Source: Magnetococcales bacterium
GTDB lineage: Bacteria > Pseudomonadota > Magnetococcia > Magnetococcales > DC0425bin3
Direction of reading: 5' to 3'
Assembly: GCA_015229045.1 (NCBI GenBank)
Contig: JADGCJ010000048.1
Coordinates: 1-22,975 of the forward strand
Length of the DNA: 22,975 nt
This document shows positions 3,380-17,637 of this stretch, piece after piece. The position numbers and the translations under genes were made by a program. Position 1 is the first letter of the stretch, and each line of letters opens with the position of its first letter. The notes below the pieces were generated by a model. The model saw only the letters and a list, made by a program, of their open reading frames with translations. It searched no databases and was not told the DNA's origin.

Positions 3380-5257
3380 ATGAAACGCAGTCACTACTGC
3401 AACGCAGTTCGGGAAGATTCAATCGGCAGTCGCGTCGAGTTGTGTGGTTGGGTCAACCGCCGTCGTGACCATGGCGGGGTGATTTTTGTCGATCTGCGGG
3501 ATCGCACCGGCCTGGTCCAGGTGGTGTTCAGCCCCGAGCGGGAGGGCCAGGTGCATGGCCGTGCCCATGATTTGCGCAGCGAGTTTGTCATCCGCGTGGC
3601 CGGGGTGGTGGCGCCTCGACCCAAGGAGACCGAAAATCCCAACCTGGATACCGGCATGATCGAGGTGAATGTCGACCATCTGGAGATTCTCAACACCTCC
3701 CAGGCATTGCCCTTCCAGCTGGACGACCCCGACCTTGGCGAAAGCACCCGTCTCACCTGGCGTTTTCTCGATCTGCGCCGCCCGGCGATGCAGCGCAACC
3801 TGATGTTTCGCCATCGGGTGATGCAGACCATGCGCACCTGTCTCGATCAGGCAGGTTTTCTGGAGATCGAGACCCCGATGCTCACCCGCAGCACCCCCGA
3901 GGGGGCGCGTGACTATCTGGTGCCCTCGCGGGTCAATCCCGGCCAGTTTTATGCCTTGCCGCAATCGCCACAGCTGTTCAAGCAGTTGTTGATGATCTCG
4001 GGTTATGATCGTTATTTCCAGATTGTGCGCTGTTTTCGCGACGAGGATCTGCGCGCCGACCGGCAACCCGAGTTCACCCAGGTCGATCTGGAGATGTCTT
4101 TCGTCGAGGCCAACGATGTCATCACCAGCGTGGAGGGGATGATCGCCCGCATTCTCAAGGAGTCGCTGGGTATCGATCTGGAGCTGCCCATTGCCCGCAT
4201 CACCTACAGCGAGGCCCTGGAAAAGTATGGCCTGGATGCCCCGGACATGCGCATTCCCATGGAGCTGGCCGATATCACCGAGGCCATGCGGAAAACCTCC
4301 TTCAAGGTGTTCGCCGAGACGGCCAACCTGCCTGGCGCCCGGGGTTTGAACGGGGTGATCAAAATATTGCGCGTCCCCGGCGGCGGACGCCTCACCCGCA
4401 AGCAGATTGACGATTACGGTGCTTTTGTCGCTGTCTATGGAGCCAAGGGACTCGCCTGGATCAAGGTCAATGCTCCCTGGCAGGAGGATGGCTGGCAGTC
4501 GCCCATCGTCAAATTTTTCTCCGAGAGCGAGAAGGCGGCCATTCAGGCGGCCTCCGGAGCGCAGCCGGGTGATTTGATCTTCTTCGGGGCGGATCGTTCG
4601 GGGGTGGTCAACGAGGCGTTGGGGCGCCTGCGCGTCAAGGTGGCGCATGATCTGGGGCTGCTCGAAGAGCGGCGTTTCGCCTTTGTCTGGGTGACCGATT
4701 TTCCCCTCCTGGATTGGGACAAGGAGGCACGGCGTTACACCGCTGTGCATCATCCGTTCACGGCACCGCATCCGGACGAGCTGTCCGCCTTTCAGCAGGC
4801 AACCAGCGAGCAACTCACCGGCGGGGTGGCCGATCCAACCCTGATGGCCATGCGTGCCCAGGCCTATGATCTCGTCCTCAATGGCACCGAGGTGGGGGGC
4901 GGATCGATTCGTATCCACAATCCGGCGGTGCAGCTGCGCATGCTGGAACTTTTGCACATCGATCAGGCCGAGGCCGAAGCCAAGTTTGGTTTTCTCCTCA
5001 AGGCGCTGGACTATGGTGCCCCGCCGCATGGTGGTCTCGCCCTGGGGTTGGATCGCCTGGTCACCCTGATGCTCGGTCTCGACTCCATCCGCGAGGTGAT
5101 CGCCTTCCCGAAAACGCAAAAAGCCGCCTGCCCCCTCACCCAGGCCCCTTCTGCCGTGGCCCCCGAGCAATTGCGTGAACTCAATCTGCGCTCCACCTTC
5201 CGGCCCAAGGAGGGGGAGCAGGGTGCTTCTGCGGCCAAGGGGGAGGAGCATGGATAG
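3380..5257 (+). CDS. aspS: aspartyl-tRNA synthetase (probably Asp/Asn type)
   Basis: Class II aminoacyl-tRNA synthetase that charges tRNA-Asp, 625 residues, slightly longer than the usual ~590 because of a polar C-terminal tail. The N-terminal OB-fold anticodon domain (VELCGWVNRRRDHGG) is followed by the catalytic core with motif 2 around FRDEDLRADRQPEFTQVD, the bacterial GAD insertion in the middle, and motif 3 around GLALGLDRLVTLML. Residue 31 is His, the residue reported for non-discriminating AspRS (Pseudomonas aeruginosa H31), whereas the E. coli discriminating enzyme has Leu in this stretch. This suggests it also makes Asp-tRNA-Asn for GatCAB, although gatCAB is not in the window. AGGAGA lies 5 bases before the ATG. 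Its 3' end overlaps the DUF262 gene by 8 bp. Confidence 0.97.
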   Translation: MKRSHYCNAVREDSIGSRVELCGWVNRRRDHGGVIFVDLRDRTGLVQVVFSPEREGQVHGRAHDLRSEFVIRVAGVVAPRPKETENPNLDTGMIEVNVDHLEILNTSQALPFQLDDPDLGESTRLTWRFLDLRRPAMQRNLMFRHRVMQTMRTCLDQAGFLEIETPMLTRSTPEGARDYLVPSRVNPGQFYALPQSPQLFKQLLMISGYDRYFQIVRCFRDEDLRADRQPEFTQVDLEMSFVEANDVITSVEGMIARILKESLGIDLELPIARITYSEALEKYGLDAPDMRIPMELADITEAMRKTSFKVFAETANLPGARGLNGVIKILRVPGGGRLTRKQIDDYGAFVAVYGAKGLAWIKVNAPWQEDGWQSPIVKFFSESEKAAIQAASGAQPGDLIFFGADRSGVVNEALGRLRVKVAHDLGLLEERRFAFVWVTDFPLLDWDKEARRYTAVHHPFTAPHPDELSAFQQATSEQLTGGVADPTLMAMRAQAYDLVLNGTEVGGGSIRIHNPAVQLRMLELLHIDQAEAEAKFGFLLKALDYGAPPHGGLALGLDRLVTLMLGLDSIREVIAFPKTQKAACPLTQAPSAVAPEQLRELNLRSTFRPKEGEQGASAAKGEEHG

Positions 5258-5792
5258 TTCCGACTCCCCTCCATCTCTCGATCCGCGTCAGGTTAAAATC
5301 GAGACCAAACAAGTCACTCTGGCATCCCTCATCAAACGCATGCGCGAGGGCAGGATCGGCCTGGATGCGTACCAGCGTTTGGGAACATGGAGTCGCGATG
5401 CGCAGAGCCGATTGATCGAATCCATGCTGATTCGCATACCCCTGCCATCGTTTTGTATGGATGTGGCCAATGAGGAGGGTTGGGTCGTCGTTGATGGGTT
5501 GCAAAGGCTCCTCGCCGTGCGCGATTTCATCCTTCCCCAAGATCCTGGCAAGGGATTGCTCCTGCAAGGGTTGGACTTTCTCAAGGATTTGGAAAGAAAA
5601 GGCTTTACTGACCTGCCACGGCACTATCAGAGACGCATCGAAGAGACCGAGATCACGCTCTTCCTGATTGAAAAGGGAACACCTGAACCTGTCAGAGATA
5701 ACATTCACAAGCGCTTCAGACCAAACCGATTCTCAATGGATTTCCAAACAGGATTAATAAGTGATTCAGTCGATCAGGTTGACCAACTTTAA
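5250..5792 (+). CDS. DUF262 domain protein, apparently C-terminally truncated
   Basis: A 180-residue protein with the N-terminal DUF262 fold, related to ParB/Sulfiredoxin nucleases and to the GmrS half of GmrSD. Family marks are VTLASLIKRMREGRIGLDAYQR (about 22-43, given here for orientation only), LIESMLIRIPLP (55-66) and the diagnostic VVDGLQRL (80-87, usually DGQQR). Full-length DUF262 proteins normally continue past a NIFKRINTGG-type motif for 150 residues or more; this one reads NIHKRF (151-156) and then diverges into an unrelated tail of about 24 residues that ends inside the next gene. That points to an internal deletion near 5715, so it may be inactive. The ATG at 5250 has GGGAGG just upstream and overlaps the aspS stop, suggesting translational coupling. 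First gene of a three-gene module. Confidence 0.75.
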   Translation: MDSSDSPPSLDPRQVKIETKQVTLASLIKRMREGRIGLDAYQRLGTWSRDAQSRLIESMLIRIPLPSFCMDVANEEGWVVVDGLQRLLAVRDFILPQDPGKGLLLQGLDFLKDLERKGFTDLPRHYQRRIEETEITLFLIEKGTPEPVRDNIHKRFRPNRFSMDFQTGLISDSVDQVDQL

Positions 5793-6882
5793 GTGTTTTG
5801 AATCTGTTTCGATTCCGTTAGCCGGCCTTACGCTCCTCACCGGCTTGAATGGCACGGGAAAGTCGTCGATTATCCAAGGATTGCTTCTCTTGAGGCAAAC
5901 ATATTACCTGAACATGACCAACCAAATGTCCGGCAGCGAAACGTTGAGCATTCACGGAGACTTGGTTGGTTTTCCAAATGCAAAGCCTATATTATTTGAC
6001 AATTCGGAAGCAAGCGAATTCGGTATTTGCATTACAGACAAGAACGATATTGATATATTAAAGTTGATTTCTAATGTGGCAAACGATTCTGGCAATATAT
6101 CGACAAAATCAATAACAAAAACAGCCGACACTTTCTCAGAAAATCTATTTACGCACCGTTTTCAATATCTCCAAACAGAACGTCTTGCGCCACAAATGGC
6201 CTATGCAATGTCCGAGTTTCACGTCCGTCAGCTTCAACGTTTAGGGTCGCGCGGCGAATTTACAGCACATTTTTTGGATGTCTTTGGCAAAACTGAGATC
6301 AATTCCTCATTGAATCATGAAAAAGCACGTTCTGGTCAACTCATTCACCAGGCAGCTGCATGGCTTGGTGAAATCAGCCCTGGAATCGATATTCACATCG
6401 CTCCACATACTAACGTGAACGCGGTTGTTCTTGAATACTCCTTTGCCACCTCTTTGGGGCGCAGCAGGAATTACCTGCCTACAAATGTCGGTTTCGGTAT
6501 CACTTACACACTGCCGATCATTGTTGCCATTCTGGCGGCACAACCGGGTGACATGCTCATTCTGGAAAACCCGGAAGCACACCTCCACCCACAAGGACAA
6601 GTCCGGATGGCAGAACTGGTCGCCCGTGCTGCCAGGGCAGGCATACAAATTATTCTTGAGACCCACAGCGATCATATCATCAACGGCGTCAGAGTCGCCG
6701 TAAGGCAGGGGAAATGCGCACCCGGAGATGTGTCGATACACTACTTCTCCAAGAAAGAAGCGGAAGATGGTCGGATATACAGTGATTTTGTGTCGCCAAT
6801 CATCGACAAAAATGGGCGTATCACTCCTTGGCCCGAGGGGTTTTTTGATGAGTGGGAAAAAAGCCTCGAAGCCCTTTTTTAA
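5761..6882 (+). CDS. AAA family ATPase with DUF3696 C-terminus
   Basis: A 373-residue ABC/SMC-like ATPase of the OLD-like AAA group. The Walker A motif is GLNGTGKSS at 28-36, an ABC-signature-like TNVGFGITYTLP lies at 241-252, the Walker B LILENPEAHLHP at 266-277, and the H-loop region ETHSDH at 300-305. The last 50 residues (VSIHYFS ... NGRITPWPEGFFDEW) match my knowledge of DUF3696. No nuclease (TOPRIM or HNH) is fused. The start is the GTG at 5761 with AGGA 7 bases upstream; it overlaps the DUF262 frame by 32 bp. Base composition is more AT-rich than aspS, consistent with transfer. ATPases of this type usually power or gate an effector in antiphage or toxin systems; that role is inferred here. 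Confidence 0.88.
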   Translation: MIQSIRLTNFKCFESVSIPLAGLTLLTGLNGTGKSSIIQGLLLLRQTYYLNMTNQMSGSETLSIHGDLVGFPNAKPILFDNSEASEFGICITDKNDIDILKLISNVANDSGNISTKSITKTADTFSENLFTHRFQYLQTERLAPQMAYAMSEFHVRQLQRLGSRGEFTAHFLDVFGKTEINSSLNHEKARSGQLIHQAAAWLGEISPGIDIHIAPHTNVNAVVLEYSFATSLGRSRNYLPTNVGFGITYTLPIIVAILAAQPGDMLILENPEAHLHPQGQVRMAELVARAARAGIQIILETHSDHIINGVRVAVRQGKCAPGDVSIHYFSKKEAEDGRIYSDFVSPIIDKNGRITPWPEGFFDEWEKSLEALF

Positions 6883-6908
6883 TTGCCTGTTGCCAGAGTG
6901 ATCTCTCC

Positions 6909-7847
6909 ATGGAGATGGTTTTTAACGAATTGAGTCAGCGTCACCTTGCACCTAACCTGGATGAGGCTCGGAAACATGTAAAAATGCTGCTTGATACCAT
7001 ACGTGCTGCTTCTCAGAAGGGTGTCAGTCGTCAGTTGCGGACCTCAGAAAGTTTTAGAAACAAACCACTGGCCGATAAATATTCCTGGTACAACTGGAGT
7101 CAGGACAAGAACGTCCCCAGGGAACTGCGACACTATTTTTTAAGTATCGCTACACGAGCGCCTTATCTCGATGGGTTGGAAAATACACAGGAAAAAGCAA
7201 CAGGATTTGACATATTGTTTGAAGGTGAAATTGCCGAAGGTCTGGGTGTAGCCTTCCTGACCGGCGGTTTGGCGGTCAGCCTGCCTTCGAGTCCTGAATG
7301 GGAATCTCCTTTTGTAACCCTGGACATTCAGGAGTTACAAGAAGATGGTTCGCTTTTGAAGTACCCGAAGGAGGTCCATCACGCCAGCGTTCCTTCCCAT
7401 GTTGACCATGACCATACAAAGTGGATTGAAGAGGCTTTACGCCAGTCCGTTATAACGGCTGATGATCTGTGGCAAGAAAGAAATTCTCTTTTCCCCTCTC
7501 TCGAATTTTGCACCGTTGTCAAAAAGCAAATGTATGGCCTGCCTAAAGGGACCCTTCTTCGGTTCCTGCGTGGCCTGCGCTGTTTGGAAGAGTATTGTCA
7601 GCAATGGCAATGCGGCAATTTTGACCAAGCCGGGTTAGGGTGCGTGTCCTCGACGGAAACACCGAAGACATTGAAAGAGTACGGACAGGAGAGGACTTTC
7701 ACCTGCCCTGATGGCACAAGTCGTGTCTTCAGTCACCATGTCAAGCTCGGTGATCTATGGCGTATCCATTACTATCCGATGAGACCTGGGAAAATTATTA
7801 TCGGCTACGTTGGACGACACCTTAATACCTCAAGATATCATCATTAA
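6909..7847 (+). CDS. conserved protein of unknown function, third gene of DUF262/DUF3696 module
   Basis: A 312-residue protein with no domain I can name. The N-terminus (MVFNELSQRHLAPNLDEA ... MLLDTIRAASQKG) looks like a family I recall next to DUF262 and DUF3696 genes, which typically opens with NELS and an amphipathic helix. The C-terminus has a compact pattern: FTCPDG, then SHHVKLGDLWRIHYYP and IIIGYVGRHLNT, two strands with His, Lys and Arg that resemble a small RelE/HigB-like or nuclease-like strand pair, though this is weak. No signal peptide or membrane segment is seen. I chose the ATG at 6909, 26 bases after the ATPase stop, because family similarity begins there; a GTG at 6852 inside the ATPase gene is possible but less likely. 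Probably co-transcribed with the ATPase. Confidence 0.7.
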   Translation: MEMVFNELSQRHLAPNLDEARKHVKMLLDTIRAASQKGVSRQLRTSESFRNKPLADKYSWYNWSQDKNVPRELRHYFLSIATRAPYLDGLENTQEKATGFDILFEGEIAEGLGVAFLTGGLAVSLPSSPEWESPFVTLDIQELQEDGSLLKYPKEVHHASVPSHVDHDHTKWIEEALRQSVITADDLWQERNSLFPSLEFCTVVKKQMYGLPKGTLLRFLRGLRCLEEYCQQWQCGNFDQAGLGCVSSTETPKTLKEYGQERTFTCPDGTSRVFSHHVKLGDLWRIHYYPMRPGKIIIGYVGRHLNTSRYHH

Positions 7848-7908
7848 TGTTATCATATTGGAGTGATTGCTTTACCCAACATCGAATCGAGTGCATATGC
7901 AGGAAACC

Positions 7909-10900
7909 ATGATCGACACCACCCGAGAAAAGCCATTGATCCTGCTGGTGGATGACGACCAGGAGACGAGTCATCGCCTGATGGAGATTCTGCTGCCGGA
8001 AGGGTATCAAATCCGCAAAGCGCACTCCGGCGAGCAGGCGGTCGAGCTGTTCCAGGAGACATCGCCCGATCTGGTTCTCATGGACGCGGACATGCCGGGC
8101 ATGTGCGCCTTCGATGCCTGCGCCCGCATCAAGCACCTCCAGGGCGAACGCAATGTGCCGGTGGTGTTCATGGCCGCCTACCCCTGCGAAGGAGAGATCC
8201 TGCGCAATGTCTACCAGGTCGGGGCGGAAGAGTTCGTCTACAAGCCGGTCAATCCGGATATTCTGCGCCATCGCCTGGCCCGGCTGATCATCGGCAATCA
8301 GGAAAAGCGCGTTCTTCAGGAAAAAGAGACCCGCCTGCGCCAGATCCTCGAATCGACCGTGGATGGCATCATCACGATCGACCGGACAGGCATCATTCAA
8401 TCCTTCAATCCCGGGGCACAGCGTATCTTTGGCTATGAACTCGATGAAGTCATAGGACACAACATACGCATGCTGATGCCGCAACCCTACCGGGATGAAC
8501 ATGACGGCTACCTCCAACGCTACCTGGAAACAGGTGAATCCAGGGTGGTGGGACAGGGCCGCGAATTGCAGGGCCAACACAAAAATGGCCTCATCTTTCC
8601 ACTCTATGTGGCCATCAACAGCATGCGGGTCGGAGGACGGGTCTATTTTACCGGCATCCTCCGCGACATGACTCACGCCAAGGCCGCCGAAGAGGAGATC
8701 CAAAAACTCGCCCGGGTGGTCGAAGAGAGCCCCAGCATGATCATGATGACCGATCCAGAGGGCACCATCGAATACGTCAACAAAAAATTTCAGGCCGTCA
8801 CCGGCCATGACATCCACGACCTGCTGGGGCAACACGCCGATCTCCTGCAAAGCCGGGAACAGGCGCCGGATATACCGACCCACATGTGGGAAACGGTCCG
8901 CCAGGGTCTTGTCTGGCGCGGCGAAATCTCCTATCGCCGCCAGGATGGAACCCCCTTCTGGGCCGGGGTCACCATGGCCCCCATCTTTGGACTCTCGCAG
9001 GAGATCACCCATTTTGTCGCCACGTCATCAGACATTACCAAACGCAAACTGGCCGAAGAGCAGGTTCTGCGCAGCCAGGAGTCACAAAAGGTCATCAATG
9101 CCCTGCTGAAAACCGCCGTCGATGCCCTGCCCCTGAAACGCCAACTCGATCAGGCCCTGGAGATTCTGCTCTCGGCCCCGACATTGACGGCCATGATCCA
9201 GGGGGCGGTGCTGTTGATGGATGATCGTACCGGGGAGCTGGTGATGGAGGTGCAGCGCGGGGTCGATCCCGTCATACCCCACACCTGTCTGCGCGTGGTG
9301 ACCGGGCATTGCCTCTGCGGACAGGCGGTTCAGTTGCGGGAGATTGTTTTTTCGTCCAGCTCGTCAGACGAACGCCATGATATTCAGGTTGCAGGGAAGA
9401 AACCCCACGGTCACTACTGTGTCCCCATCATTGGCGAGACCAAGATTCTCGGTGTGATCTGCATCTCCATCCAGGAGGGGCATCGGCGATTACCGGAAGA
9501 GGAGTCCTTCCTGACCTCGGTGGGCCAGACCCTGGCCAGCATGATCCAGCGCAAACGCTTTGAAATGGCCCTGCAACGCATCGCCGCCGAACAGGATGTC
9601 ATCCTGGCCAATACGGCTGTGGGCATCGCCTATCTGCAAGAGGGCCGCTTCATCCGCATCAACACCCGCATGGAAGAGCTGATCGGCTGGAGCGAACCGG
9701 AACTGCGCGACAAGACCGCCGAGATGTTGTTCTCGTCCCGGATTGAATTTCGTGAACTGGCACGGGCAGCGTTGCGCGCCTTGTCCAAGGGTCGCACCTT
9801 TCGCGCCGAACGTCTCATGCAGCGCAAGGATGGACGACGTTTCTGGTGCCGCCTGGTGGGCAACTCCGTCGAAGACGACAGCCTGCGCAACAAGGCCATC
9901 TGGATCCTGGATGACATCACCCAGGAAAAAGAGGTGGAAGAGGCCCTGCGCCGCGCCAAGGATGCCGCAGAACGCGCCAGCCGGACCAAGTCCACCTTCC
10001 TGGCCAACATGAGCCATGAAATTCGTACCCCGATGAACGGCGTCATCGGCATGCTCGAACTGTTGGGCAAGACCGAATTGACGGCCCAACAGCGCCACTA
10101 TCTGGACGTGGCGGCCAGCTCGGCTGACATGCAGTTGAACATTATCAACGACCTGCTCGATTTTTCCAAGATCGAGGCCGGCAAGCTCGATCTGGAGCGC
10201 GTCCCCTACTCCCTGGCCGAGGCGGTCGATACCGTCACCCGGATTCTTTCGGGCCGGGCGCATCGCAAGGGGTTGGAGTTCAACTGTTTCGTCGACCCGA
10301 ATCTCCCCCGCCGAGTGGTGGGCGATCCCATGCGTCTGCGTCAGGTATTGATCAACCTGATCGGCAATGCCATCAAGTTTACCAACAAGGGGGAGGTCTC
10401 CATCCGGGTGGAGTCGGAGTGGCGTGGGCGGGATCTGGTCCAGGTACGCTTTCAGGTGTTGGATTCCGGCATTGGTATCGATCAGGAGACCCAGGGGCGT
10501 CTGTTCAATCCCTTCACCCAGGCCGACAGCTCCACCACCCGCGAATATGGCGGTTCCGGGCTGGGTCTGGTCATCTGCAAACAGCTTGTCGAGGCCATGA
10601 ACGGTCGCATTGGCATGAGCAGCCAGTTGGGGCGCGGATCGACGTTCTGGTTCTCCATGCCTTTCGAGATTCGCGAGGGAACCGAGGCCGGCAATCTCCA
10701 GACCGTGAAAGAGCTGCGCACTCTGGTTGTCGACGACAATGAAACCAACCGCATCATTCTCGGTGAATACCTCGCCTCCTGGGGAACCCAGTTTGAAAGC
10801 GCCGCCGGGGCGGAACGCGCCCTGGATCTGATCCAGAAAAATCGCAACTCCGGCGAATCTTACAGTTTGATCATCCTCGACATGCACATGCCCGGGCTGG

Positions 10901-11988
10901 ATGGTCTGGGGTTGGCGCGGCGCATTCGTAGCACCTGCGGTGTGCAATCCCCGCCCATGTTGATGTTGACCTCGGGGGAACAACCCGATGAGTGGTCACT
11001 CCAGGAGGCGGGTATCCAGTTGAGTCTGGCCAAGCCGGTTGGTCAGTCGCGGCTGCTCGATGCCATCTCCATGGTCATTGCCGACCAGAGGAAGGATCTC
11101 TCCCCGCCCCCGCCGGGAGGTAACATGCCGCAATTCAAGGGGCGGGTCTTGCTCGTCGAGGATGTGTTCGTCAATCGCGAGGTGGCTCTGGGCATGCTCG
11201 AACGCATGGGTCTGGAGGCCCAGGTCGCCAACAATGGCCGGGAGGCGGTCGAACAGGTCTTCGACACCCCCTTCGACCTGGTGCTGATGGATGTCCAGAT
11301 GCCGGAAATGGATGGCATCGAGGCCACCCGGCGCATTCGCAGATCGGTGACCGAGCGGCGGGTACCCATCGTGGCCATGACCGCCCACGCCCTGACCGGC
11401 GACCGGGAGCGCTGCCTGGATGCCGGCATGGATGATTATCTGGCCAAACCTGTGCGTTGGAACGATCTGGCCGGGGTCTTGAGCAAGTGGCTCCCGATGA
11501 TCGCCGCGCCGACGGCCATGCCCTCCCTGGTCAATGTAGGGGACTCTTCCGAACACCTCGCCTCCACCCCCGGCCCGACTGTCGGCACTGCTCCAGGCAC
11601 AACGCGAAAAAAGACCGGCGGCCTGGACATGGGAACCCTCAAAACTCTGCGCGACGTCCTGGCCGGGGCGCCGGGACGCTTTGCCCTGGTTTTGGAGAAA
11701 TATTTGGAAGGGGTGCCCAAATATTTGGACGATATGGGCGAGGGCTTCAAAAACGGCGATGCAGAGGCAGTCTACCGGGCGGCCCACACCTTGAAGTCAC
11801 AAAGCCTGTCCGTGGGAGCCGTGGAGCTGTCGCGTTTTTGTCGCGAGTTGGAGGTCGTGCGCCAGGGGAACAATCTGCCCGAATTCGCCTGGTACTATCA
11901 GACCATCCTGACAGAGTTTTCCCGCGTCCGTCCTGCCCTGGAGGAGGAGATCAAAAACATCTCCGACAGCCGGGTTATTCTGCCTTGA
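7909..11988 (+). CDS. soluble hybrid sensor histidine kinase / response regulator
   Basis: A 1359-residue multidomain kinase without any membrane segment, so it should sense a cytoplasmic signal or a partner protein. Order: REC1 (about 10-130, acceptor D59), PAS (143-258), PAS (265-381), GAF (389-551), PAS (553-674), HisKA (691-757, H703 in NMSHEIRTP), HATPase_c (801-919, with NAIKF, DSGIGID and GSGLGLVICK boxes), REC2 (937-1057, D991), REC3 (1079-1194, D1128) and HPt (1242-1341, H1293 in AHTLKS). All phospho-acceptor residues are present, so an internal His-Asp-His relay is possible. The start is ATG 7909 with AGGA 4 bases before it; ATG 7897 is the alternative. It follows the unknown gene by 61 bp and may share its transcript. 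No output regulator lies nearby, so the target is unknown. Confidence 0.95.
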   Translation: MIDTTREKPLILLVDDDQETSHRLMEILLPEGYQIRKAHSGEQAVELFQETSPDLVLMDADMPGMCAFDACARIKHLQGERNVPVVFMAAYPCEGEILRNVYQVGAEEFVYKPVNPDILRHRLARLIIGNQEKRVLQEKETRLRQILESTVDGIITIDRTGIIQSFNPGAQRIFGYELDEVIGHNIRMLMPQPYRDEHDGYLQRYLETGESRVVGQGRELQGQHKNGLIFPLYVAINSMRVGGRVYFTGILRDMTHAKAAEEEIQKLARVVEESPSMIMMTDPEGTIEYVNKKFQAVTGHDIHDLLGQHADLLQSREQAPDIPTHMWETVRQGLVWRGEISYRRQDGTPFWAGVTMAPIFGLSQEITHFVATSSDITKRKLAEEQVLRSQESQKVINALLKTAVDALPLKRQLDQALEILLSAPTLTAMIQGAVLLMDDRTGELVMEVQRGVDPVIPHTCLRVVTGHCLCGQAVQLREIVFSSSSSDERHDIQVAGKKPHGHYCVPIIGETKILGVICISIQEGHRRLPEEESFLTSVGQTLASMIQRKRFEMALQRIAAEQDVILANTAVGIAYLQEGRFIRINTRMEELIGWSEPELRDKTAEMLFSSRIEFRELARAALRALSKGRTFRAERLMQRKDGRRFWCRLVGNSVEDDSLRNKAIWILDDITQEKEVEEALRRAKDAAERASRTKSTFLANMSHEIRTPMNGVIGMLELLGKTELTAQQRHYLDVAASSADMQLNIINDLLDFSKIEAGKLDLERVPYSLAEAVDTVTRILSGRAHRKGLEFNCFVDPNLPRRVVGDPMRLRQVLINLIGNAIKFTNKGEVSIRVESEWRGRDLVQVRFQVLDSGIGIDQETQGRLFNPFTQADSSTTREYGGSGLGLVICKQLVEAMNGRIGMSSQLGRGSTFWFSMPFEIREGTEAGNLQTVKELRTLVVDDNETNRIILGEYLASWGTQFESAAGAERALDLIQKNRNSGESYSLIILDMHMPGLDGLGLARRIRSTCGVQSPPMLMLTSGEQPDEWSLQEAGIQLSLAKPVGQSRLLDAISMVIADQRKDLSPPPPGGNMPQFKGRVLLVEDVFVNREVALGMLERMGLEAQVANNGREAVEQVFDTPFDLVLMDVQMPEMDGIEATRRIRRSVTERRVPIVAMTAHALTGDRERCLDAGMDDYLAKPVRWNDLAGVLSKWLPMIAAPTAMPSLVNVGDSSEHLASTPGPTVGTAPGTTRKKTGGLDMGTLKTLRDVLAGAPGRFALVLEKYLEGVPKYLDDMGEGFKNGDAEAVYRAAHTLKSQSLSVGAVELSRFCRELEVVRQGNNLPEFAWYYQTILTEFSRVRPALEEEIKNISDSRVILP

Positions 11989-12076: not shown

Positions 12077-12107
12077 GGTAAATTTGGGAGAGTCATTTTC
12101 TCTGTTT

Positions 12108-12275
12108 TTGCCATTCGTGAATGGCAAGTGTTTTGAGCTTTTTCTTCAGAATTTCAGTACCGCGTTCCCGCAGACAGAGATTCTTCTGCTCATGGACAAT
12201 GCGCCCAGCCATACGAGCGGAAAAGTCGTTTGGCCAGAACGAGTCTATGGCTTGCACCTGCCACCATACGGCCCA
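12108..12275 (+). pseudogene. IS630-family transposase fragment
   Basis: About 56 codons in one frame encode the DDE core around the second catalytic Asp: FVNGKCFELFLQNF, then LLLMDNAPSH (the D-N-A-x-x-H signature) and LHLPPYGP. In intact proteins the last motif continues as ELNPxE, carrying the catalytic Glu; here it breaks into unrelated sequence after PPYGP. The N-terminal HTH, the first Asp and the C-terminal Glu are missing, so it cannot be active. The frame stays open past the break until 12551, but that part is an antisense shadow of the next gene. Confidence 0.75.
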
Positions 12276-12330
12276 ACGACTCACTCGCTTTCCCTGGTGG
12301 CCCGTCATAACATCAGGCCATTAGTGTTTG

Positions 12331-12343
12331 GAAACGGTATTAC
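12331..12343 (+). repeat. right terminal inverted repeat of IS remnant
   Basis: GAAACGGTATTAC, the partner of 12064-12076. Confidence 0.75.
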
Positions 12344-12368
12344 GCACCCTCTTCGGTTTGATTTTGAC

Positions 12369-14723
12369 CTACACCATCACCCGTACCTGCCGATTGGCGC
12401 AATCCATGGCGAGAACCTTGGCCTGCGACCACTCGCGGAACAAAATCTCCCCCGCCCCGATTACAGCCGGGATGCCCAGCTCCCCCGCTCGAATGGCCAT
12501 ATGCGAGTTGACCCCGCCAAACTCGGTGATGAAACCGCCGATGCCGTGTGAAAAGAGCCAGTCATAGCCGGGGTCGGCATTGGAAATCATCACCACGTTG
12601 CCCTTCAATTTTTCATGGGCAGTGTCTTCGTGCACCACTTCGCCGACGACATTTTCCAGGGTGATGTAATTGGGATGGTCGACAGGGATCTGAAACTGGT
12701 AGACATCCTCCGGATGGACGATCAAAGGTGGCAGGGAGACGCTCTGGGTCATGGCGTAACGCCGCCGTCCCTCGGCAATGGCCTGGGCCAGCACTGTCGA
12801 CGGATCTTCGCTCCCCGAATAAAGCTGATGGATGACACCAATGTCGGCATAGGAGAGATCATCGCGGGTGAAACCAAATTTTTCGGCGTACACTTCGAAC
12901 AACTGCAACGCCGCACTCAGACTTTTGGTGAAAATGAACTTGGCCTGTTCCCGTCCCTCGATGGCCCCCTGGATAAACTTGAACAGGCTGAGGACGTCGT
13001 GGTCGATACCATGTTTCTTCAACAGGGTGAGAATGTTTTCCATCTTGCCCAAGGTCAGGGAGAAGGGTTCCCGGCTCTCCCGGGCCTCTTTCTTGGTTTG
13101 TGCGGCAGCAGTTGTCCGGGCGGACCAGTCGAAGTACAGCTCCGGGTTTTCATCATAGCGGGGTGAAAGAATGTTGTAGGTTCCAGGCCGCAAATGGCCA
13201 TAACGACTCAGAAACTCCTCCCGGCCCAAGGTGTGGAAATCCTCTCCCATGTGCGAGCTGACGGTTTGCAGGGAACTCATGAACGCCCCATAATCCCTGG
13301 CCGACAAAACCCCCACCTGCACCATCGATTTCAACATTTGCACGGCGATGAATCCGGCTCGCGCTAGGCCGGCAAAGGGGAGGGTGCCATAGCGTTTGCA
13401 ATCTTCGAGGATCCAGTAAATCTTGCTGAGGAGATCCTGGTCGCTGTCGATGATCCGGCGGCGGCGCTCTTCCAGCTCCTGGACGCGCTTGATGTCCCCC
13501 TTCCAAAGCCCGGCCTCCTCGCCGATAATCCGGTTGGTCAACCTTCTGAGGCTCTGTTCCAGGGTTTCGATCTCCTGTTGGGAGAAACCGTCATCGTGCA
13601 GGACCAGGAGTCGTTCTGGCAGATCGAAGGTGTAGCAGGAGTAGATGACGTCGAACTCCACCTTGTCGTGTTGATGGGGATTCTCCTCCAGGCGGTCGAT
13701 GTAGTGGTTGACCAGGCGTTCGGCGAGATCGTCGGGAATATCTGCCGGGACGAAGGAGTTGAAGCTGACCCGGACATCGATGTAGGGCAGGCCGGCAAAA
13801 TCGATCAGCAGGGGAAAGCTGCGCAAATTTCTGTAGCCATAGTTGTCCCGCTGATAGGCCCAGATGTGATCGGTCACCAGCTCCTTGTACAGGGACAAGG
13901 CGAGGAGACGGGGCCGAATACCGATGATTTCGGCAGGATTCCAGTCCGGCATGATGCCAAAAATCGAGCGTCGTCCATAGAGATAGGGGTGGGGCTGCGT
14001 GTGGGTGGTGATTTTCCGGTGAATGTGTTGCAAAACCTGCTGGTGGGCCTGCGCATCGGCCAAAAATCCCCCCGCCCGGTGCAGGGGCCGCACCTGGAAC
14101 AGGTATAACGTGCCATCGCCCGCCACGGCGAACTCCACATCCAGGGCATCGCGGGCAAAGAGGCTCTCCAGCTCCTGCAACAGACGGAGCAGATCGCCCC
14201 AGGGTTGGGTGGGTGTTATGGGCGCATGGCGGGCAAAGTAGAGGGTTTGCAAATGGCGCCCGGCCCCGGAGGTGACACTGTCGGTGCTGCCTGAATGGGC
14301 ATCATAGTTGATGACATGATAGTGGCTGCCGTTGTTCGGGTCGCGGGTGAAGGCCACACCGCTCAGGCGTACCTGGGACAAAAAGGGCTGGATGAAAATT
14401 TGATCGTCCAGGGTGTTATCCGGGAAGGAGGCCAGCACCTGTTCGATGGCCCGGCTCAGGCCATCGCGGCTGACGACGTTGCCCACCGAAGTGAAATGGC
14501 CGGCCATGGAGGTGGTATCGGTATCCTCGCTCCGGGCAGAGCTGCGCACGATCAGCGCTCCCTGCGACCAGGTCGTTGCAAAGATGCGCTTCAATATTTT
14601 ACCCGGAGACTGGCGCCACTGCCGGGCCGTCAAGCGGATCTGCGGCAGGATGCGGGCGTGTTTGACGAGGGGTTCCAGCAGCGCCAGCGTCTCTGCTTTG
14701 GTGCCAAATTGCAGCATGGCCAT
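12369..14723 (-). CDS. PEP-synthase-like phosphotransferase (ATP-grasp plus swivelling His domain)
   Basis: A 784-residue protein of the pyruvate phosphate dikinase/PEP synthase superfamily. The N-terminal ATP-binding domain (about 1-230) has the VRSSARSEDT signature with R60 and closes with the typical LYLFQVRPL strand. The C-terminus holds the swivelling phospho-His domain: GGVNSHMAIRAGELGIPAVIG with catalytic H741. Between them lies a large region (about 240-690) that is not the PEP/pyruvate TIM barrel, so PEP synthesis is unlikely. This order, ATP domain then substrate domain then His domain, recalls rifampin phosphotransferase, which moves the beta-phosphate of ATP to a small molecule; the substrate here is unknown. 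The start is ATG 14723 with GGAG 8 bases upstream; it lies 19 bases after the methyltransferase stop, so they form one operon. Confidence 0.85.
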   Translation of the reverse strand: MAMLQFGTKAETLALLEPLVKHARILPQIRLTARQWRQSPGKILKRIFATTWSQGALIVRSSARSEDTDTTSMAGHFTSVGNVVSRDGLSRAIEQVLASFPDNTLDDQIFIQPFLSQVRLSGVAFTRDPNNGSHYHVINYDAHSGSTDSVTSGAGRHLQTLYFARHAPITPTQPWGDLLRLLQELESLFARDALDVEFAVAGDGTLYLFQVRPLHRAGGFLADAQAHQQVLQHIHRKITTHTQPHPYLYGRRSIFGIMPDWNPAEIIGIRPRLLALSLYKELVTDHIWAYQRDNYGYRNLRSFPLLIDFAGLPYIDVRVSFNSFVPADIPDDLAERLVNHYIDRLEENPHQHDKVEFDVIYSCYTFDLPERLLVLHDDGFSQQEIETLEQSLRRLTNRIIGEEAGLWKGDIKRVQELEERRRRIIDSDQDLLSKIYWILEDCKRYGTLPFAGLARAGFIAVQMLKSMVQVGVLSARDYGAFMSSLQTVSSHMGEDFHTLGREEFLSRYGHLRPGTYNILSPRYDENPELYFDWSARTTAAAQTKKEARESREPFSLTLGKMENILTLLKKHGIDHDVLSLFKFIQGAIEGREQAKFIFTKSLSAALQLFEVYAEKFGFTRDDLSYADIGVIHQLYSGSEDPSTVLAQAIAEGRRRYAMTQSVSLPPLIVHPEDVYQFQIPVDHPNYITLENVVGEVVHEDTAHEKLKGNVVMISNADPGYDWLFSHGIGGFITEFGGVNSHMAIRAGELGIPAVIGAGEILFREWSQAKVLAMDCANRQVRVMV

Positions 14724-17271: not shown

Positions 17272-17577
17272 TTATAAATTTTGAATAAGAAAATCGGCCA
17301 CGGGGCGCTCTCCCCGGGCGAGTCGCATCAGAATGGCTGCCTGCATCCTGGCGTCCGGGGCGACCTCATGCGCTCCCGGTATGCCCTTGGAAGGCTCTGG
17401 AACGGGTTTGCCGTGGTCCAGCCGCCACTCCAGCATGGCTGTCAGCACTTCGGCGGCGTTGAAGAGCGCTTCCTCCTCTGTCTTGCCCTCGGTGAAAGCA
17501 TCATCCAGGTCTGGAAATGTGACAAGAAAACCTTCAGGTTGTTGGGGTTCGAGCAGGGCAGGGTAGCGGATTTCCAT
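17272..17577 (-). CDS. HicB-family antitoxin-like protein, apparently truncated
   Basis: A 101-residue protein with the HicB partial-RNase-H fold: YPALLEPQQPEGFLVTFPDL, then EGKTEEEALFNAAEVLTAML and KPVPEPS. HicB proteins neutralise the HicA mRNA interferase and often carry a C-terminal HTH or RHH domain that represses the operon. Here the C-terminal part begins as expected (MQAAILMRLARGERPVAD) but stops after FLIQNL, just where an HTH helix would continue and where the DNA turns AT-rich. No hicA-like gene lies on either side, so it is an orphan. The start is ATG 17577 with AGAGG 7 bases upstream. It lies 60 bases after apaH on the same strand. Confidence 0.75.
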   Translation of the reverse strand: MEIRYPALLEPQQPEGFLVTFPDLDDAFTEGKTEEEALFNAAEVLTAMLEWRLDHGKPVPEPSKGIPGAHEVAPDARMQAAILMRLARGERPVADFLIQNL

Positions 17578-17637
17578 GATGCCACCTCTCATAAGGAAGA
17601 TTGCCATCGGGTTATTTCGTCCTGGCCCCCCCCCTCC

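Follow-up and report, generated by a model that had tools for sequence, protein, structure and literature searches.

Directly behind the aspS gene in a 22,975-nucleotide stretch of DNA from a Magnetococcales bacterium (contig JADGCJ010000048.1 of assembly GCA_015229045.1; hereafter the window), three genes lie head to tail that we assign, by sequence comparison, to a Menshen-type antiphage operon, nsnA-nsnB-nsnC (Table 1). The ATG start codon of nsnA at 5250 overlaps the aspS stop codon (5255-5257) by 8 nucleotides (nt), and the gene ends with a stop at 5792. The GTG start of nsnB at 5761 lies inside the 3' end of nsnA, giving a 32-nt overlap, and nsnC follows after a 26-nt gap with an ATG at 6909; an alternative GTG at 6852 would extend its product to 331 amino acids (aa). 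The trio forms an AT-rich patch (5250-7847) with aspS on one side and a histidine kinase gene on the other, the GC content being 0.508 for nsnA, 0.463 for nsnB and 0.477 for nsnC versus 0.615 for aspS and 0.599 for the kinase gene. An earlier note on this DNA had described a head-to-tail set of a DUF262 gene, an AAA-DUF3696 gene and a gene for a 312-residue protein, more AT-rich than aspS; the open reading frames (ORFs), the Pfam matches and the GC values (0.463-0.508 versus 0.615) agree with that description.

The top PADLOC matches of the three proteins are, in gene order, NsnA (2e-46), NsnB (2.2e-113) and NsnC (4e-81), which bears out the choice of Menshen as comparator in the earlier note. 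The arrangement is not a chance one, for the matches name every component of a single system in the right order, and the trio recurs in other genomes. Pfam places the first protein in GmrSD_N/DUF262 (1.8e-10) and the second in AAA_15, AAA_21 and DUF3696 (1.8e-17); the third protein matched no family. Both NsnB and NsnC have their full length (PADLOC profile positions 1-343 of 345 and 2-304 of 305), and the genes A, B and C are all present, adjacent and in the Menshen order. NsnA, however, covers only positions 39-182 of a 385-position profile, and since full-length NsnA belongs to the definition of Menshen, we file the locus as a variant rather than as a complete system. The system itself is ordinary; its shortened and apparently retained NsnA is what makes the variant unusual. 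The suggestion that the trio is defence-like is supported: the gene set is of the Menshen type, but the truncation of NsnA, which the earlier note had overlooked, weakens the case for the window copy as a working defence system.

Table 1. Features of the operon and of its flanks in the window.
Feature	Position	Strand	Description	Basis
nsnA stub	5250..5792	+	180 aa, DUF262/GmrSD N-lobe only	ORF list, PADLOC, Pfam GmrSD_N
nsnB	5761..6882	+	373 aa, P-loop ATPase, DUF3696 tail	ORF list, PADLOC, Pfam
nsnC	6909..7847	+	312 aa, two predicted domains	ORF list, PADLOC, AlphaFold2, VIA-align
aspS	3380..5257	+	Context outside the system, directly upstream of the operon	ORF list, homologues in class genomes
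Histidine kinase	7867..11988	+	Context; PAS, GAF, response-regulator and Hpt domains	Pfam

The window NsnA consists of the N-terminal lobe alone, and its 180 residues are less than half the normal length of a DUF262 gene product. Three full-length relatives carry a further 199-206 residues past the KRIN motif, for which no match above chance was found in the window (best E 0.35), and the leader ahead of the DUF262 lobe is shorter than in the relatives. In the alignment, the stub retains DGLQR, shows an altered FQRN-type motif and lacks the RINTGG-type motif, all three of which we take to be parts of the nucleoside triphosphate (NTP) pocket. A passage of the review PMC10952713 names only (I/V)DGQQR. 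Three metagenomic DUF262 proteins of 161-167 aa (P0084, P0109 and P0116) also end near the lobe boundary of the stub and are possible independent N-lobe-only forms; the FQR motif of P0084 looks intact.

Recurrence of the operon was followed in 48 genomes of one class, centred on a Magnetococcales locus from the aspS scan (L007, genome G007). Nine of the 48 genomes gave an NsnC match, and seven of these nine carry an intact, contiguous nsnA-nsnB-nsnC. The other two are G011, with a shortened nsnA, nsnB and nsnC, and G036, which has nsnA and two nsnC fragments and in which no nsnB match was found. NsnA-family matches are broader (22/48). In the seven intact loci NsnA is full length, ending at profile position 383-384 of 385, and no aspS match was found at any of them. 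Among the nearest NsnC proteins, two bear the names Magnetococcus and Magnetococcales. Among plasmids, 20 records match NsnB, and NsnA-DUF3696-NsnC triplets are present in 5 of the 11 that we inspected, from Methylobacterium, Photobacterium, Acinetobacter, Paracoccus and Psychrobacter. NsnA is again full length in these triplets (375-453 aa, profile end 382-384 of 385), and their NsnC was recognized by profile; the window NsnC matched a single plasmid record by tblastn, and we therefore regard NsnC as variable. The Methylobacterium triplet adjoins a Mu-type transposase gene and an AAA gene. The remaining six inspected records are cyanobacterial and arranged differently; on Nostoc and Tolypothrix plasmids (L174-L179), an HNH-domain gene lies near NsnB-like DUF3696 ATPases and no DUF262 gene is annotated. 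The proposal of a mobile module fits these plasmid copies, the differing locations (no aspS match at the seven intact loci) and the base composition. The three genes recur together in seven of the nine NsnC genomes and in the five plasmid triplets, and nsnC is not mostly found without its partners, the exceptions being G011, with remnants of all three genes, and G036, without nsnB.

Homologues of aspS were found in 47 of the 48 class genomes (E <= 0.001), part of them distant only, and the aspS scan gave 27 loci, including 8 from Magnetococcales at 67-73% identity. Two genomes share the site with the window: G010 (aspS 90% identical, kinase 85%) and G011 (88% and 79%). Behind the G011 aspS lies an equivalent stub (P0021) of 170 aa, or 182 aa as the longest ORF, followed by remnants corresponding to 91 NsnB residues and to NsnC residues 187-310; the kinase gene is about 3.8 kb further along on the opposite strand. 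The start of nsnA overlaps the aspS stop in both genomes (window, ATGGATAG; G011, ATGGCTAA), and in both stubs the break point is followed by CCAA. In G010, the nsnA that lies 83 nt behind aspS is full length (382 aa, profile 27-383 of 385); there (L077, 4221-8194) nsnA is followed by an AAA-type ATPase gene, a TPR gene and the kinase gene, nsnB and nsnC are absent, and a complete nsnABC stands at a separate location. Of the two genes directly after this nsnA, the first encodes 455 aa and matches AAA_22 weakly, and the second encodes a TPR protein of 442 aa; the set may represent a further pairing of NsnA. At 13 other aspS loci (L004-L007, L026 and L079-L086), covered for 3.7-8.1 kb past aspS, no nsn match was found at 1e-8 or 1e-12. 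Two tandem near-repeat ORFs of 263 and 257 aa lie after the G011 nsnC remnant (L045, 5086-5877 and 5813-6586, minus strand). Elsewhere in the window, an ORF at 12084-12551 (plus strand) matches DDE_3 transposases only weakly (1.1e-4, short of the Pfam cut-off) and is perhaps an insertion-sequence remnant, and a HicB-like antitoxin gene at 17272-17607 (minus strand; HicB_lk_antitox, 2.3e-9) adjoins an AT-rich stretch at about 15.5-17.5 kb.

In the NsnA tree, the window and G011 group together (99/97) within an aspS-site set that includes G010 (96/94), and the two also group in trees of the nsnB and nsnC pieces (100/99 and 86/89). Since the gene trees, the start codon and the break point agree, the comparison suggests that both stubs derive from a single truncation in a common ancestor. 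Across 159 codons the stubs differ at 38, 28 and 84 first, second and third codon positions, and the ratio of nonsynonymous to synonymous changes (dN/dS) is 0.166 by NG86 and 0.21 by YN00, with an upper 97.5% bootstrap value of 0.27 (300 resamples, undefined values set to 0); dS had no defined value in the pieces of nsnB and nsnC. In neutral simulations, the frames were still open in 2/400, 10/400 and 88/400 runs at 0.6, 0.3 and 0.1 changes per site per lineage, respectively. This comparison supports purifying selection on the stub after truncation. Conservation was also scored over invariant columns, defined from the seven intact loci with G036 excluded and with leave-one-out values for the intact proteins. 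The window NsnC keeps 74 of 78 such columns, as high a share as in intact loci (0.86-0.97), and the probable effector is thus the best-preserved part of the operon. The G010 NsnA at the aspS site keeps 71 of 90.

A role for NsnC as effector is plausible because its C-terminal domain is RelE/YoeB-like in the model. AlphaFold2 and VIA-align divide the protein into an N-terminal alpha/beta domain (residues ~1-183) and a C-terminal domain (~193-312) whose modelled fold is that of RelE/YoeB and of the RelE/ParE superfamily. Compared with RelE, YoeB and HigB toxins and with the RelE domain of Cami1, this domain is the second half of a 312-residue protein, and no sequence similarity to them was detected. 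The operon has the same three-part layout as ptuXYZ (Gerdes 2025, PMC11980606), which is described as a DUF262 protein, a P-loop ATPase and PtuZ (WP_100429724.1), whose N-terminal domain is PIN-like and whose C-terminal domain is YoeB-like; the difference is that the first protein of the window is truncated. NsnC fits the PtuZ layout through its modelled C-terminal domain, a structural likeness only, and its N-terminal domain searched alone gave no clear PIN match. The correspondence of layout, as opposed to sequence, suggests that Menshen and ptuXYZ may be one system under two names. Menshen itself (NsnA-NsnB-NsnC; Millman et al. 2022, as cited in PMC10952713) resembles the window operon in gene order, PADLOC matches and full-length NsnB and NsnC; it differs in that the C-terminal half and some of the NTP-pocket motifs are missing from the window NsnA, and that the operon lies behind aspS, its first start codon overlapping that gene. 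The DUF262 + DUF1524 enzymes GmrSD, BrxU and SspE share the DUF262 N-terminal domain with the window NsnA, which in contrast belongs to a three-gene operon; no DUF1524 HNH nuclease domain was matched by Pfam in any of the three proteins at E <= 1.

We lean, with restrained confidence, towards a reduced Menshen operon that is still under selection. NsnB would then act as an ATP-driven sensor or switch, and the NsnA lobe, which we propose is no longer an NTPase because of its changed FQRN-type motif and the loss of the RINTGG-type one, would be a structural or regulatory partner of NsnB and NsnC. Infection would activate NsnC, whose RelE/YoeB-like domain would cleave RNA, probably on ribosomes, and so stop translation. 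More tentatively, the stub may be a natural minimal NsnA without NTP pocket or C-lobe, its reading frame overlapping that of an essential tRNA-synthetase gene and the N-lobe alone holding or licensing an NsnB-NsnC RNase switch, with full-length NsnA dispensable for some Menshen-type responses.

Several observations weigh against a retained function. A review passage (PMC10952713) reports that Menshen no longer protected once its DUF262 gene was mutated or deleted, so the studied system needs NsnA and a stub may be too little. Of the invariant NsnA columns, the window protein keeps only 61 of 90 (0.68, versus 0.97-1.00 in intact loci) and the window NsnB 105 of 132 (0.80, versus 0.93-0.99). The stub dS exceeds 1 and is near saturation, the aspS tree leaves the window, G010 and G011 unresolved, and the CCAA match at the break point is four bases only; if the truncations were independent, dN/dS would partly mirror an earlier full-length history. 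For the effector, hhalign gave the NsnC C-terminal domain a probability of 0.2-0.7% against 10 YoeB and 29 ParE sequences (93% for YoeB versus ParE as positive control), and the RelE-like assignment by Foldseek was without significance.

Some of these points feed the strongest alternative, that nsnA was broken in the ancestor, protection was lost and the window represents an early stage of a decay advanced in G011. The altered or missing pocket motifs, the low column retention in NsnA and NsnB and the dependence of the studied Menshen on its DUF262 gene favour it, as do the loss of most of nsnB and nsnC in G011, where Q also replaces H304, and a second broken locus in G036. Decay fits less well with frames that stayed open in both lineages, with a dN/dS of about 0.2 at dS > 1 and with NsnC conservation equal to that of intact loci, and we hold it to be a serious but doubtful explanation. 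Supply of full-length NsnA in trans by a gene elsewhere in the genome, leaving the stub as a left-over, is improbable: G010 does hold several NsnA-family genes, including the aspS-site copy and one within a complete nsnABC, but the stub is the sole NsnA-family match in the draft genome G011. An assembly or sequencing error is least probable by far, for although the window appears to be an entire 22,975-base contig of a draft assembly, the independent G011 assembly has a nearly identical break at the same site in diverged sequence.

Should the stub be non-functional, the window, G010 and G011 would represent different states of a defence operon dismantled at one chromosomal site. If Menshen and ptuXYZ are the same system, the idea of a RelE/YoeB-like effector would extend to Menshen, whose mechanism is sparsely covered in the literature searched. 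If the stub does work, it would set apart what each half of NsnA does and provide a natural minimal construct.
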